Of a stretch of DNA of 64,000 nt, positions 4,077-38,464 are shown one piece after another. Source of the DNA: Natrinema amylolyticum (lineage in GTDB: Archaea; Halobacteriota; Halobacteria; Halobacteriales; Natrialbaceae); assembly GCF_020515625.1 (NCBI RefSeq), contig NZ_JAIWPJ010000005.1:1-64000 (forward strand). Reading direction: 5' to 3'. A program made the translations under genes and the position numbers. Every line of letters begins with the position of its first letter. The first letter of the stretch is position 1. The notes under the pieces are model-generated. The model was not told the DNA's origin. It did not search any database and saw only the letters and a program-made list of their open reading frames with translations.

Positions 4077-4915
4077 GCGCGCCGAGCATCGACCGCCACG
4101 GCGGGAGCTTCGCGAGCGACGTGTGGGTCACGTTCGTCCGGTGGACGATCAAGTCGGTCCGGAACCCGTTCGTGCTGGTCGTCTCGCTCGTCCAGCCGAT
4201 CATCTTCCTCGTCCTGTTCACGCAGGTGTTCGGCGGCGTCGCGACGAGCGCCCTCGAGGGGATCAGCTACGAGACGTACCTCGTGCCGGCGATCGTGATT
4301 CAGGTCGCGCTGGTGGCGGCCGCAACGTCGGGGATCGGGCTGGTCAACGACATCGAGAACGGCATGTTCGAGAAGACGCTGGTGAGTCCGATGAACCGCA
4401 GCGCCGTCTTCTTGGGTAAGACGCTGGCCGAGGTCGTCCGCATCGTCGTTCAGGTCACGATTGTGCTCGTACTGGGCGTGCTGCTCGGTGCCGAGATTTC
4501 GACCGGGGTGGTTGGTGCGGTCGCGATCGTCGGCATTTGCGTCCTGTTTTCGATCTGGTTCACCGCGTTCTCGAACGTCCTCGCCGTGATGACCCGCGAC
4601 GAGGAGTCGACGATCATCGGGGCGAACCTGCTCCAGTTGCCCTTGCTGTTCGTTTCGAGCGCGTTCCTCCCATTGCCTGCGCTGCCGGAATGGATCCGGA
4701 CGGTCGCGACGTTCAACCCGATTACCTACGGCGTCGACGCCGCTCGTGCGGTAATGCTCGGCGAGGACACCATGACGGTCATCGAGATCGCGCGATTCGA
4801 CGGGATGTGGAACACCCTCGCTCCCGCGCTGGCCGTCCTGTCGGGGCTGGCCCTGATCTTCGGATCGGTGGCCGTCTACGCGATCGGCCGTGCGGCGAGC
4901 GCCGACGTGCAGTGA
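4073..4915 (+). CDS. ABC-2 type exporter permease (DrrB-like)
   Basis: The 280-aa protein has six predicted membrane segments and the ABC-2 permease pattern: an amphipathic N-terminus, VSLVQPIIFLVLFTQVF, the EKTLVSPMNRS coupling segment and the C-terminal FNPITYGVDAAR motif that is very typical of DrrB/NodJ-like permeases. It follows the ATPase with a 4-bp overlap and would form the transporter (ATPase dimer plus permease dimer) in the cytoplasmic membrane. The start ATG is fixed by the overlap. Confidence 0.9.
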   Translation: MSAPSIDRHGGSFASDVWVTFVRWTIKSVRNPFVLVVSLVQPIIFLVLFTQVFGGVATSALEGISYETYLVPAIVIQVALVAAATSGIGLVNDIENGMFEKTLVSPMNRSAVFLGKTLAEVVRIVVQVTIVLVLGVLLGAEISTGVVGAVAIVGICVLFSIWFTAFSNVLAVMTRDEESTIIGANLLQLPLLFVSSAFLPLPALPEWIRTVATFNPITYGVDAARAVMLGEDTMTVIEIARFDGMWNTLAPALAVLSGLALIFGSVAVYAIGRAASADVQ

Positions 4916-4984
4916 AGAGTCCGGCGATCGGACCGAACGTGGCGTAACCGACATGATTTAGCGACCGTGGTCGTAGGATAGCAC

Positions 4985-5206
4985 ATGGACCGATCGGGAT
5001 TCGTCAAACTCGCGGTCACCGCGTTCGGACTCGTGGTTTTGAGCTTCTTCGTGCGCGGTACCAGCCGCCTCGTACTCGGAGCGGAAACCGCCGAGTTGCT
5101 GCAGGCACCGCTCGCCGTCGTCGGCTTCGGACTCCTCTGCTATCTCTTCATCAGGGCGACGCTCGACGCCGTCGGGGTCTGGAGCGTCGAAGATCCCGAC
5201 GCGTGA
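4985..5206 (+). CDS. Small two-helix membrane protein, function unknown
   Basis: The 73-aa product has two hydrophobic segments (about residues 8-25 and 40-58) joined by a short polar loop, then an acidic tail ending in EDPDA. A TATA-like GATTTAGC about 28 nt upstream supports this ATG and a leaderless message. It lies just upstream of hisD in the same direction, but hisD has its own T-rich promoter-like element, so an operon is not certain. I do not recognise the family. Confidence 0.6.
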   Translation: MDRSGFVKLAVTAFGLVVLSFFVRGTSRLVLGAETAELLQAPLAVVGFGLLCYLFIRATLDAVGVWSVEDPDA

Positions 5207-5249
5207 GCGGAAGGAAACCGTTTTTCGCCCGCCGCTCGAACACTGACTC

Positions 5250-6548
5250 ATGACAATCGACGTGCAGACGGTCGCCGACCTCGGGCCGGACGACCGCGTC
5301 GCCTTCTTCGAGCGCGACGCCGGTATCGAGTCGGTCAGGGGAAACGTCCAGGAGATCGTCGAGCGGGTTCGAAAGGAGGGTGATGTCGCCGTCCGCGAGT
5401 TCACCAGCGAGTTCGACGACGTCGAGGTCGGCAACCTCGAGATCACCGACGACTGTGAGCGCGCGTACGACGAGATCGACGACGGGATTCGGAACGCGAT
5501 CGAGACGGCCGCGGCGAACGTCCGCGAGTTCCACGAGGCCCAACTCCCCGAGGACTGGCAGCAGGAGTTCGATACGGGTCGAGAGCTCGGCCGTCGGTTT
5601 CGACCGATAGAGCGCGTCGGCGTCTACGTCCCCGGCGGCTCGGCGGCCTACCCCTCGAGTGCGATCATGGGCGTCGTGCCCGCGGTCGTCGCCGGTGTCG
5701 ACCACGTGTCGGTGGTCACGCCGCCGGCGGACGACCTGAATCCGGTGACGCTGGCGGCGATCCACGCGGCGGGCGCGGACGCGGTCTACAGCGTCGGCGG
5801 CGCACAGGCGATCTCGGCGCTGGCCTACGGGACGGAGACGGTCACTAACGTCCAGAAGATCGTCGGCCCCGGCAACAAGTGGGTAACTGCGGCCAAAGCC
5901 GAGGTCCGGGGCGACGTCGAGATCGATTTCCTCGCGGGACCGAGCGAAGTGGTCGTGGTGGCCGACGAGAGCGCGGACCCCGACCTCGTTGCCGCGGAAC
6001 TCGTCGCGCAGGCGGAACACGATCCCAACGCCTCGGTGGTGGCCGTCACCGACGACGAAGACACCGCCGACGCGGTGGCCGCAGCCGTCGACGAGCAGGC
6101 CAACGCACGCGAGCGCGAAGACGTGATTCGAGATGCGCTCGGGAACGACGCGAGCGGCGTCCTCTGTGCTCGCTCGATGAGCGAGGCGATCCTCTTCACC
6201 GAGGAGTACGCCCCCGAACACCTCTCGATCATCGCCGAGGACGACGAATCGCTCCTCGAGCGCATCGACAGCGCCGGTAGCGTCTTCCTCGGTCCGAACA
6301 CCCCGGTCGCTGCGGGCGACTACGCCAGCGGGACTAACCACGTCCTCCCGACAAACGGTGGCGCGCGCGCGACCGGCGGGCTCGCCGTCGAGACGTTCCT
6401 CCGATCGACGACGGTCCAGCGGCTCTCCGGCCAGGGTCTCGCTGACTTGGGCAAGACGATCACTACGCTCGCGGAGGCCGAAGGGCTCGAGGCCCACGCC
6501 GAGAGCGTCCGACTCCGACTCGAGGACGACGCGAATCGGGACGAATAG
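5250..6548 (+). CDS. hisD: Histidinol dehydrogenase
   Basis: HisD catalyses the last two steps of histidine synthesis, oxidising L-histidinol via histidinal to histidine with NAD and zinc. The 432-aa length is normal. Family landmarks are clear: VGVYVPGGSAAYPS, the VYSVGGAQAISALAYGT segment, the zinc-ligand region VAQAEHDP, the catalytic Glu-His in EEYAPEHLSII, and GDYASGTNHVLPT. A final His in the C-terminal helix (EGLEAHAESVR) matches the third metal-ligand position. No other his genes are adjacent, consistent with scattered his genes in haloarchaea. TTTTTC about 27 nt before the ATG is a likely promoter. Confidence 0.96.
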   Translation: MTIDVQTVADLGPDDRVAFFERDAGIESVRGNVQEIVERVRKEGDVAVREFTSEFDDVEVGNLEITDDCERAYDEIDDGIRNAIETAAANVREFHEAQLPEDWQQEFDTGRELGRRFRPIERVGVYVPGGSAAYPSSAIMGVVPAVVAGVDHVSVVTPPADDLNPVTLAAIHAAGADAVYSVGGAQAISALAYGTETVTNVQKIVGPGNKWVTAAKAEVRGDVEIDFLAGPSEVVVVADESADPDLVAAELVAQAEHDPNASVVAVTDDEDTADAVAAAVDEQANAREREDVIRDALGNDASGVLCARSMSEAILFTEEYAPEHLSIIAEDDESLLERIDSAGSVFLGPNTPVAAGDYASGTNHVLPTNGGARATGGLAVETFLRSTTVQRLSGQGLADLGKTITTLAEAEGLEAHAESVRLRLEDDANRDE

Positions 6549-35670: not shown

Positions 35671-35679
35671 ATTGAAATA
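35671..35679 (-). promoter_or_regulatory. TATA-like element of orc1
   Basis: TTTATTTCA-type sequence on the minus strand centred about 31 nt before ATG 35644, giving a nearly leaderless transcript that starts inside the origin region. Confidence 0.5.
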
Positions 35680-35881
35680 AAGGTATGGAGATCGATCGCG
35701 TATGTAAATAGGTGGTGTGAGCGCTCGATGCGAGGGATAACGGCAGTATAATCGGAGGAGTGGTACAGGGCCACCCTCGCGTGTCTAACTGTAGGCGGGA
35801 CCGCACCCGGGACGGACACCCCCATCGCGGATGTAAGTTCGGACGGTTGGGTCGGTATGAGAGCCACTCGATTCGGTTTCG

Positions 35882-35911
35882 GGAATCGGATTCCGTCCGA
35901 GAGAGACGGAC
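35882..35911. repeat. Two short inverted repeats inside the origin
   Basis: GGAATCGGATTCC (35882-35894) and GTCCG-AGAGAGA-CGGAC (35895-35911) are adjacent perfect inverted repeats between the fourth ORB and the left arm. They may be structural or protein sites. Confidence 0.5.
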
Positions 35912-35980
35912 GAAATAGCTGACATTCTCGAAAAAGAAACCTTTCAGGCCGTGAGAAGGCAATCCATTGCTTCCGCACGG

Positions 35981-36011
35981 GGGACACACCCCCCTCGCGT
36001 TTGTAACGGCA
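35981..36011 (-). repeat. Origin recognition box, left arm of 31-bp inverted repeat
   Basis: Exactly the reverse complement of 36127-36157, with the G-rich GAGGGGGGTGTGT end pointing toward orc1. The perfect match over 31 bp shows strong conservation. Confidence 0.85.
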
Positions 36012-36073
36012 ATAGCGTGGTGGCGTGAGCAGTTATTTTCGAAATATCCGGATCGATGCCCGCATTTCGGATC

Positions 36074-36104
36074 GAATTTACATCCGCGGTGGAGGTGTGT
36101 TTCC
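36074..36104 (+). repeat. Origin recognition box, inner copy
   Basis: Contains TTACATCCGCGGTGGAGG followed by TGTGTTTCC, matching the ORB consensus at most positions; same orientation as the right arm. Confidence 0.7.
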
Positions 36105-36126
36105 GAACAGGGACCCCACACGAAAC

Positions 36127-36157
36127 TGCCGTTACAAACGCGAGGGGGGTGTGTCCC
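36127..36157 (+). repeat. Origin recognition box, right arm of 31-bp inverted repeat
   Basis: Perfect partner of 35981-36011. The G-rich half points away from orc1, so the two arms face outward around a 115-bp centre. Confidence 0.85.
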
Positions 36158-36568
36158 TCTCTCACTGAATAGGTTGTCGGACTCTCCTGCAGAAAACCCC
36201 AACAAGCGTGTTCGAGACGGCGTCTTTCCCTCGAAGAACTCTAGAAACTAGCTACTAGTACTAGTGTAGGTGATAGAGAAGTAAGAGAAAGAGAGAAAGG
36301 CAGAGAACCAGAGAGAGGCAGCAAGGAGGAGAACAAAGCAGCGATCCGTTCCGTTCGGCGATCCATCCCGCTCAGCAATCCGTTCCGCTCGGCGCGGTCG
36401 ATCGAGCGAGGCGACGAACGCGCTCCTTTTTGCGTTCCCGCTCGCTATTCCGGATATGAACGCGATCACTGACACATCGTTTCCGCCGACCGTGATCTCT
36501 CTCGGTCGCTCCGGAACCGAACCGAGACGGAAACTCCCTCGCCTCGAGTCCACGACACCGACGGACCA
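36158..36568. other. Gap between origin and trmJ: palindrome, purine tract, 17-bp repeats
   Basis: No gene is supported. The region contains a 12-bp palindrome ACTAGTACTAGT (36254-36265), a strongly purine-rich tract from about 36270 to 36342 on the plus strand, and three tandem 17-bp repeats (36341-36391). A possible trmJ promoter lies in the last 60 bp but no clear TATA box is seen. Confidence 0.55.
36341..36391 (+). repeat. Three tandem 17-bp iteron-like repeats
   Basis: Units start at 36341, 36358 and 36375 with the pattern GC(G/A)ATCC(G/A)TCCCG(C/T)TC-like; they differ at only two to four positions each. They lie about 185 bp beyond the right origin box. Confidence 0.6.
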
Positions 36569-37330
36569 ATGAGCGACGAATCGTCCGCTCCCGATCGGTC
36601 CGCGGATCGAACGTCGCCGGCCGTCGCCGTCGTCGACGCCCAGTCGCCGGGCAACGTCGGTACGATCGCTCGCGCGATGAAGAACTTCGGCTTCGAGGAC
36701 CTCCTGCTCGTCGACCCGCCCGAACTCGACCCCGACGGCGAGGCGTACGGCTTCGCGGGGCACGCTCGAGAGGACGTCCTTCCGAACGCCGAGGAGATTA
36801 CGTTCGATCACCTCGCGGAGAACTACCACACGATCGGCTGTACGGCGGTGACCAACGAGGACGACCGCAGCCATATGCGGTTTCCCTACTCGACCCCCGC
36901 CGAGCTGGCCGATCGACTGCCGACCGTCGAGGCACCGACCGCTTTCGTCTTCGGCCGCGAGCGCGTCGGCCTGACGAACGAGGAACTCGCACGGATCGAC
37001 GAGATCTGCTCGATCCCCGCGAACGCCGAGTATCCCGTGCTCAATCTCGGACAGGCCGCCACGATCACCCTCTACGAACTCCGCTCGCTCGCCCTTGAGG
37101 AGACGCAGTTACCTGATCTCGAGCGCGTTCGCGCCCCCGAGCCGACGATCGATCGGCTCTACGACCAGTGGGCGGCGCTGCTCGAGGAGATCAACCATCC
37201 CGAGGAGAAGCGCGACAAGACGATGCGGATGCTGCGACGGGTGTACGGCCGGGCCGACCTGACCGAACGCGAGGCGAACACGCTGCTGGGACTCCTCCGG
37301 CGGGCGACCGAACGACCCGCCGAGGACTGA
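36569..37330 (+). CDS. trmJ: tRNA/rRNA ribose 2'-O-methyltransferase, TrmJ-like (SPOUT)
   Basis: The 253-aa enzyme has the TrmJ/SpoU motifs: VVDAQSPGNVGTIARAMKNF (motif 1), AFVFGRERVGLTNEEL (motif 2) and IPANAEYPVLNLGQAATI (motif 3), forming the knotted SAM site. TrmJ methylates the 2'-OH of residue 32 in the tRNA anticodon loop. A C-terminal helical part (about 170-253) is also typical. An N-terminal acidic leader of about 15 residues precedes the domain. It is transcribed away from the origin. Confidence 0.92.
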   Translation: MSDESSAPDRSADRTSPAVAVVDAQSPGNVGTIARAMKNFGFEDLLLVDPPELDPDGEAYGFAGHAREDVLPNAEEITFDHLAENYHTIGCTAVTNEDDRSHMRFPYSTPAELADRLPTVEAPTAFVFGRERVGLTNEELARIDEICSIPANAEYPVLNLGQAATITLYELRSLALEETQLPDLERVRAPEPTIDRLYDQWAALLEEINHPEEKRDKTMRMLRRVYGRADLTEREANTLLGLLRRATERPAED

Positions 37331-37417: not shown

Positions 37418-38464
37418 ATGACCGAATTTCGCCGACGGAGCGCGTTGCAGTTGCTGGGCGGTGGCATGGCGTTTCTGGCCGGGTGTTCGGAGACCGCCGA
37501 CGGAAACGGGAACGGGACCGACGACACCGGCGAGAGCGGATCGAACGGCGAGACCGCCTCGATCGAGGGCGACCTCCCGCCGTACGCCTCGATGCTCCCG
37601 ACGAACGATCGCTCGGCGTACTTCTACGGCGCGATCGACGTCGAGACGATGAGTACCTTGCTCGAGGACGAGGGCGCCGAAGCCGGAGCGGAACCGACGG
37701 ACCCGCTCGTCGGCAACCCCGTCGTTGTCGCCCTCCTCTGTTCGTTCGGACTCCGGCAACTCGGTTCCTCGGCCGGACGCCGTGCGTACACCGACAACAA
37801 CGAGACGGCCGACGGCGAGGAACAGTTCGTCTACGCCGACGGCGTCTACGCCCTCGTCGGCTCGTACGATCGCGACGGCCTCGCGACGGCTCTCGAGGCG
37901 GCGGGCTACACCGCCGAGAGCGAGGCGGAGGCGTACGCCGTCTACACCGACGACGAGAGCGACGAGGTCGTCGGCGTCTCGGACGACGTCTACGCGTACT
38001 CGTATCCGAACGAGGGCGAGTCCGCGTTCGATCCGGTCGACGCGGTCGAGCGAACGGTCGCGACGGCGGCCGGCGATCGAACGCCGAAACACGAGGCCGA
38101 CGACGGCTTCGATCGCTTGCTTCGGGCCGGCGAGAACCGCGGCATTACGAGCTGTCTGTACACCGACGCCGACGAGTTCGACGCGGACTCCCTCTCGAGC
38201 GATCGGGCGACCGACGAGGATGGCCTGCAGTTCGCGTTCGACGCCTTCGAGGGGGCGAACGGCGTCCACCAGCAACTCGCGGTGGCCGACATCGACGCGG
38301 CCGCGACCGCGAGCGCCGTCGTCACCTACGACAGCGAGGACCGGGTCGACGAGGCCCGCCTCGAGTCGTCGCTGGGAACGGAAGCGGAGACGGTCGATTT
38401 CGTCACAATCGGCTCGAGAGTCGAAATCGACGCCGAGTACAGCGGGGAGTTCGCCCGCGAATAG
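37418..38464 (+). CDS. Tat-exported lipoprotein, function unknown
   Basis: The 348-aa product begins MTEFRRRSALQLLGGG and has a lipobox ending in Cys (FLAGC) followed by an Asn/Gly/Asp linker, so it should be anchored outside the cell. The mature domain is very acidic and alpha/beta in look (YFYGAIDVETMSTLLEDEG, GVYALVGSYDRDGLATALEAAGY, HQQLAVADIDAAATA); it resembles uncharacterised haloarchaeal surface lipoproteins. No catalytic motif is seen. Confidence 0.7.
   Translation: MTEFRRRSALQLLGGGMAFLAGCSETADGNGNGTDDTGESGSNGETASIEGDLPPYASMLPTNDRSAYFYGAIDVETMSTLLEDEGAEAGAEPTDPLVGNPVVVALLCSFGLRQLGSSAGRRAYTDNNETADGEEQFVYADGVYALVGSYDRDGLATALEAAGYTAESEAEAYAVYTDDESDEVVGVSDDVYAYSYPNEGESAFDPVDAVERTVATAAGDRTPKHEADDGFDRLLRAGENRGITSCLYTDADEFDADSLSSDRATDEDGLQFAFDAFEGANGVHQQLAVADIDAAATASAVVTYDSEDRVDEARLESSLGTEAETVDFVTIGSRVEIDAEYSGEFARE

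Follow-up and report, generated by a model that had tools for sequence, protein, structure and literature searches.

This analysis provided evidence that the intergenic region upstream of an orc1/cdc6 gene is quite probably a secondary Orc/Cdc6-dependent replication origin of the Natrinema genome that is accompanied by its own initiator gene. The window, that is, the whole stretch of 64,000 nucleotides analysed, comprises positions 1–64000 of the 178-kb contig C5 of a 4.7-Mb genome. Counted in favor of this reading were the Orc domains of the gene product, four genome-unique ORBs above background, the conservation of their layout, their co-occurrence with the gene on plasmids, the behavior of the vector pFJ5, and a half-box (B0) in the orc promoter. 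In the chromosome, the origin is probably weak or conditional. Many orc genes and several origins are present in haloarchaea; a general question is which of them are in use and how the cells control their initiator levels. In a congener, Natrinema sp. J7, for which origin-based vectors exist, the locus has already been predicted and tested to a limited extent; it is of a known kind, the Orc-type origin. It is a clean test case, as a fixed four-box spacing is kept family-wide although the origin seems weak, and it adds a candidate feedback site at the initiator promoter. What is informative about the locus is the fixed geometry of the four boxes together with the half-box at the promoter, rather than the perfection of a 31-bp inverted repeat.

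The initiator protein matched TIGR02928 (E 6.9e-124), Cdc6_lid and Cdc6_C; among structures, it scored 227 bits against Aeropyrum 2v1u and 212 bits against Sulfolobus 2qby_A, and its nearest named relatives are from Natrinema species, at 97–100% identity. The immediate gene neighbors are of the folP, trmJ and gatE types. The gap of 924 bp between orc and trmJ holds all the boxes, on the upstream side of orc (Table 1). The initial annotation, made from the letters of the window, had placed the boxes on both flanks of orc1/cdc6, which is incorrect; its view of an Orc/Cdc6-type origin beside its initiator gene is well supported by the Orc domains, by the conserved ORB architecture, and by the replication of the orthologous fragment from strain J7 as a plasmid. 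No RNA families or tRNAs were found within the window. A probable lipoprotein with an LAGC motif near the N-terminus, without a Pfam or NCBIfam match, is encoded at 37418–38464 (plus strand), and the interval between B5 and trmJ contains a purine-rich tract with three copies of a 17-bp-period repeat of the CAGCGATCCGTTCCGTTCGGCG type (36270–36394).

Table 1. Features of the putative origin region and the genes that bound it (positions in the window).
Feature	Position	Strand	Details
orc1/cdc6 initiator gene, 409 aa	34415–35644	minus	AAA+ ATPase, Cdc6 lid, C-terminal winged helix
TATA-like element TTTATT	35676–35681	minus	at −37 relative to the orc start codon; position shared by nearly all Natrialbaceae
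B0, half-ORB TTTACATACGCGA without G-string	35696–35708	minus	−64 to −52 relative to the orc start
B1, degenerate ORB	35767–35791	minus	7.5 bits
B2, outer full ORB toward orc	35815–35839	minus	33.6 bits; in 49/50 Natrialbaceae
Small inverted repeat GGAATC/GATTCC	35882–35894		6-bp arms
Small inverted repeat CGTCCG/CGGACG	35894–35912		6-bp arms
B3, ORB core in the left 31-bp arm (35981–36011)	35985–36009	minus	38 bits; exact repeat
ORB-free gap between inverted B3 and B4	36010–36074		65 bp; candidate opening zone
Element inside the gap	36015–36027	plus	consensus of relatives CCCACCCCACC
B4, full ORB between both 31-bp arms	36075–36099	plus	30.6 bits
G-rich arm GTGTGGGG just inside B5	36114–36121	minus	G-run of at least 4 in 38/50 relatives
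B5, ORB core in the right 31-bp arm (36127–36157)	36129–36153	plus	38 bits; exact repeat
Least stable stretch of the intergenic DNA, outside B5	36233–36332		nearest-neighbor stability; alternative unwinding site
Divergent TrmJ-type RNA methyltransferase gene	36569–37330	plus	TIGR00050, E 4.6e-52; bounds the origin region

ORBs were searched by a position matrix trained on relatives and scored across the 178-kb contig. B2, B3, B4 and B5 scored 31–38 bits, compared with 7.5 bits for the best unrelated site on the contig, and have the consensus TTACAnnCGCGAnGGnGGTGT in common, for which no match at ≤1 mismatch was found elsewhere in the 4.7-Mb genome (the reversed control likewise gave none). With B2 and B3 on one strand and B4 and B5 on the other, at least two ORBs stand in opposed orientation, and all four are G-string ORBs in the intergenic region adjoining orc/cdc6. 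The G-strings do face outward, as proposed in the initial annotation. Its count of five ORB-like boxes holds for these four; the fifth, B1, scored far lower, yet it is kept as TTAGAA(G/A)CGCGAG in 14 close relatives and is therefore probably real but degenerate. The count overlooked a sixth element, the half-ORB B0.

The layout of the boxes was compared in 50 Natrialbaceae loci. The same order and polarity recurred in these loci, with B5 and B4 pointing one way and B3 and B2 the opposite way; the apparent absence of B5 in N. thermotolerans A29 was merely a C-run one base shorter. The start spacing was 52–56 bp for B5–B4 (mostly 54, as in the window) and 81–91 bp for B4–B3 (mostly 87–91; about 90 in the window), and the length of the B3–B4 gap was near-constant. 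The B3–B2 distance was variable, from 77 to 602 bp (170 bp in the window). What stays invariant across these loci is how the boxes are spaced and which way they point, not the 31-bp perfection.

Concerning the orc promoter, B0 corresponds to the first half of an ORB and lies upstream of the TATA-like element. It was present at −63 to −69 in 50/50 Natrialbaceae; most plasmid relatives have it at about −57 to −70, and TTTACATNCGCGA occurs a single time in the whole genome. On sequence grounds, B0 is likely to be a site of Orc autoregulation. A precedent for initiator autoregulation is the dnaA promoter, which contains DnaA boxes (cited in PMC3936714), and Orc1-2 of Saccharolobus is an Orc-family protein that regulates transcription (PMC9738581). 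No earlier report of this promoter half-box was found in the literature searched, the coverage of which was partial. We tentatively propose, as a possibility rather than an expectation, that the origin and its initiator form a self-limiting unit, in which free Orc would repress orc via B0 once the full boxes are filled. If this is true, one protein would read two grades of box, one for the start of replication and one for self-control, similar to the DnaA boxes of the dnaA promoter. In several relatives (L205, L207 and L065–L068 of Halorussus), a C-string (CCACCCCC) comes after the promoter half-ORB, at the place of the G-string in a full ORB.

In the tree, the window Orc fell in a clade separate from a second, 596-aa Orc1 encoded on contig C3 (100/99). 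The members of this clade are chromosomal and plasmid proteins of Natrialbaceae, Halorussus, Haladaptatus, Haloferax larsenii, Haloprofundus, Halomarina and Halogranum. The same ORB, in the same layout, adjoins the same Orc clade on several plasmids and in other families, and on a 417-kb Natronosalvus plasmid the only Orc homologue found belongs to this clade. The 417-kb plasmid of Natronosalvus amylolyticus also carries a fifth full ORB downstream of orc (L202:7494–7518), an arrangement like that of ORB titration in H. hispanica oriC2. Within Natrialbaceae, the origin–initiator unit is patchy: the clade was absent from 13 good-quality genomes (G005, G006, G009, G010, G011, G015, G027, G034, G037, G038, G053, G056 and G057), in which the best Orc matches were ≤49%. 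The window Orc is therefore dispensable, and this was counted against the origin reading.

A published experiment bears on the locus. Predicted origins of Natrinema sp. J7 were cloned, including oriC9 (ARS-5) in the vector pFJ5 (PMC5350488). Since both published ARS-5 primers are perfectly matched in the N. gari locus, at the published distance of 2.3 kb, the window locus is the orthologue of J7 oriC9/pFJ5; in the N. gari copy, the ARS-5 amplicon spans the trmJ start, the origin and orc. In that study, pFJ5 replicated and was recovered as an intact plasmid, with a yield of <10 cfu/µg versus about 2000 cfu/µg for three other J7 origins (PMC5350488). The published result suggests weak activity of the orthologue, and the low yield was counted against the origin reading; it can mean that the origin is weak or that the plasmid is incompatible with the chromosomal copy, as has been demonstrated for H. 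hispanica oriC2.

The very low transformation by pFJ5 might also fit a dormant or silenced origin, whose ORB cluster would by now serve mainly to titrate Orc and to control transcription of orc; haloarchaea are known to contain dormant origins and to use ORB titration, and the conserved B0 points in the same direction. We consider dormancy unlikely, since the strict spacing of the inner ORBs is not needed for transcriptional control, the same ORB–Orc unit includes the sole Orc homologue found on the 417-kb plasmid, and pFJ5 was recovered intact. A secondary origin that is probably weak or conditional is the preferred reading.

The 31-bp inverted pair described in the initial annotation is exact, extends to 39 nt at 92% identity, and is the longest exact inverted repeat (arms <500 bp apart) in both the window and the 178-kb contig; in ten shuffles of the sequence, the longest inverted repeat was 12–14 bp, and a 25-bp pattern derived from the 31-bp repeat had 2 matches in the window versus 0 expected. 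The length and perfection of the pair had been taken to suggest a special Orc1 geometry, an idea that the relatives do not bear out. The exact run common to B5 and B3 varied from 7 to 31 bp across the 50 Natrialbaceae, of which the window is the maximum and several Natrinema reach 27–30 bp. Because the identity of the arms within genomes (27.6/31) was barely above that between genomes (27.1/31), the perfect pair mostly represents two well-conserved sites near their optimum, with the third box B4 between them. Selection on the pair itself rather than on two ORBs, for instance with arms homogenized by gene conversion or required for a cruciform, would agree with its rank as the longest exact inverted repeat of the contig and with the slight within-genome excess of identity in Natrinema (p 0.035 by permutation, without correction for phylogeny). 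It is nevertheless very improbable, as each arm consists of the family ORB consensus plus conserved flanks, the excess is small and reached only p 0.13 in all 50 loci (likewise not corrected for phylogeny), and exact runs of just 7–10 bp are tolerated in other species. The two extra inverted repeats that the initial annotation placed next to the pair do exist, with short arms (Table 1), but show no conservation among 14 close relatives.

The interval between the 31-bp arms had also been described as an AT-richer core. This interval of 115 bp contains B4, and the ORB-free gap, between B3 and B4, is 65 bp long. By nearest-neighbor stability, the B3–B4 gap is among the least stable ~2–4% of window positions. 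It is not the least stable DNA, which was counted against the origin reading; the least stable segment of the intergenic region lies outside B5 and has a likewise high family-average A+T, of 51–54%. A second G-rich arm is degenerate in the window and has a run of at least 4 in 44/50 relatives. The cumulative GC skew of contig C5 peaks at 36.0 kb. A GC-skew maximum at an origin is the opposite of the usual bacterial pattern. Among three relatives, with 400 kb inspected, a turn of the skew was seen within 30 kb in two Natrinema, and was not seen at 60–100 kb or in another genus. GC skew was not relied on as origin evidence, since the turn is local only and fails to reproduce at a larger scale, and its local character was counted against the origin reading.

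The canonical oriC1 of the genome lies elsewhere, at L193 (G000:C3:185000–194000), 4453–5391. The 596-aa Orc1 on C3 scored 365 bits against Sulfolobus Orc1-1 (2qby_A) and has its own inverted ORB pair, TCCACTCGAAACGAAGGGGTGGGGG (25 nt, 96%); such a separate, longer Orc1 was present in 20/20 genomes inspected in addition to the present one. Although the inverted ORBs, with G-strings facing outward and G-rich repeats on their inner side, recall Haloarcula hispanica oriC1, and the locus was first filed as the universal haloarchaeal oriC1 (Orc1-1/cdc6A) from its inverted G-string ORBs, this identity is practically ruled out by the separate Orc1 with its higher score (365 vs 212 bits) and different ORB pair, by the position of the window Orc in another clade, and by folP/trmJ/gatE-type neighbors that differ from the published oriC1 context (gbp, sec, polA). 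As further observations, the forward primer of J7 ARS-2 maps beside the canonical oriC1 of the genome, and no transformants were obtained with pFJ2, the J7 vector carrying ARS-2 (PMC5350488). The genome contains at least 10 further orc genes (L194–L199), and several of the further orc loci have their own distinct adjoining families of ORB-like repeats, e.g., CACACCGTGTTTCCGGTGAA, ACCCCAGGTGTCGAGTGAAATC and ACCCCGGAGTGCCGCTGTATGG.

For a secondary origin paired with its own initiator, we infer the following mechanism. The 409-aa Orc would bind each ORB as a polar monomer, with its winged helix on TTACAnnCGCGA and its AAA+/ISM on the outward-facing G-string. The inverted inner boxes B3 and B4 would flank the 65-bp gap, where DNA opening and MCM loading may take place, and the complex would be extended by B5, 54 bp beyond B4, and by B2, 170 bp beyond B3. 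At the orc promoter, Orc may also occupy the half-box B0 and possibly B1 and thereby limit its own synthesis, and use of the origin in the chromosome would be weak or conditional.

Compared with known systems, the locus fits the origins described by Wu et al. 2012, namely G-string inverted ORBs beside orc, and the adjacency of the same ORB to the same Orc clade agrees with the link between ORB type and Orc family stated there (PMC3528665). For J7 oriC9, Ori-Finder 2 counted one ORB, whereas four full boxes, one degenerate box and one half box were recognized here; the consulted text of the J7 paper contains no description of the box layout or of a promoter half-box (PMC5350488). Haloarcula hispanica oriC1 differs in its Orc family and ORB sequence, and, relative to it, the window has an extra ORB (B4) inside the pair and one degenerate G-rich arm (PMC3936714). 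Sulfolobus oriC1 (ORB2-DUE-ORB3) differs in its box sequence and in its Orc1-1, which is not orthologous to the window Orc, but it is alike in that the opening zone sits between inverted polar Orc boxes and a further box lies outside (PMC12141716).
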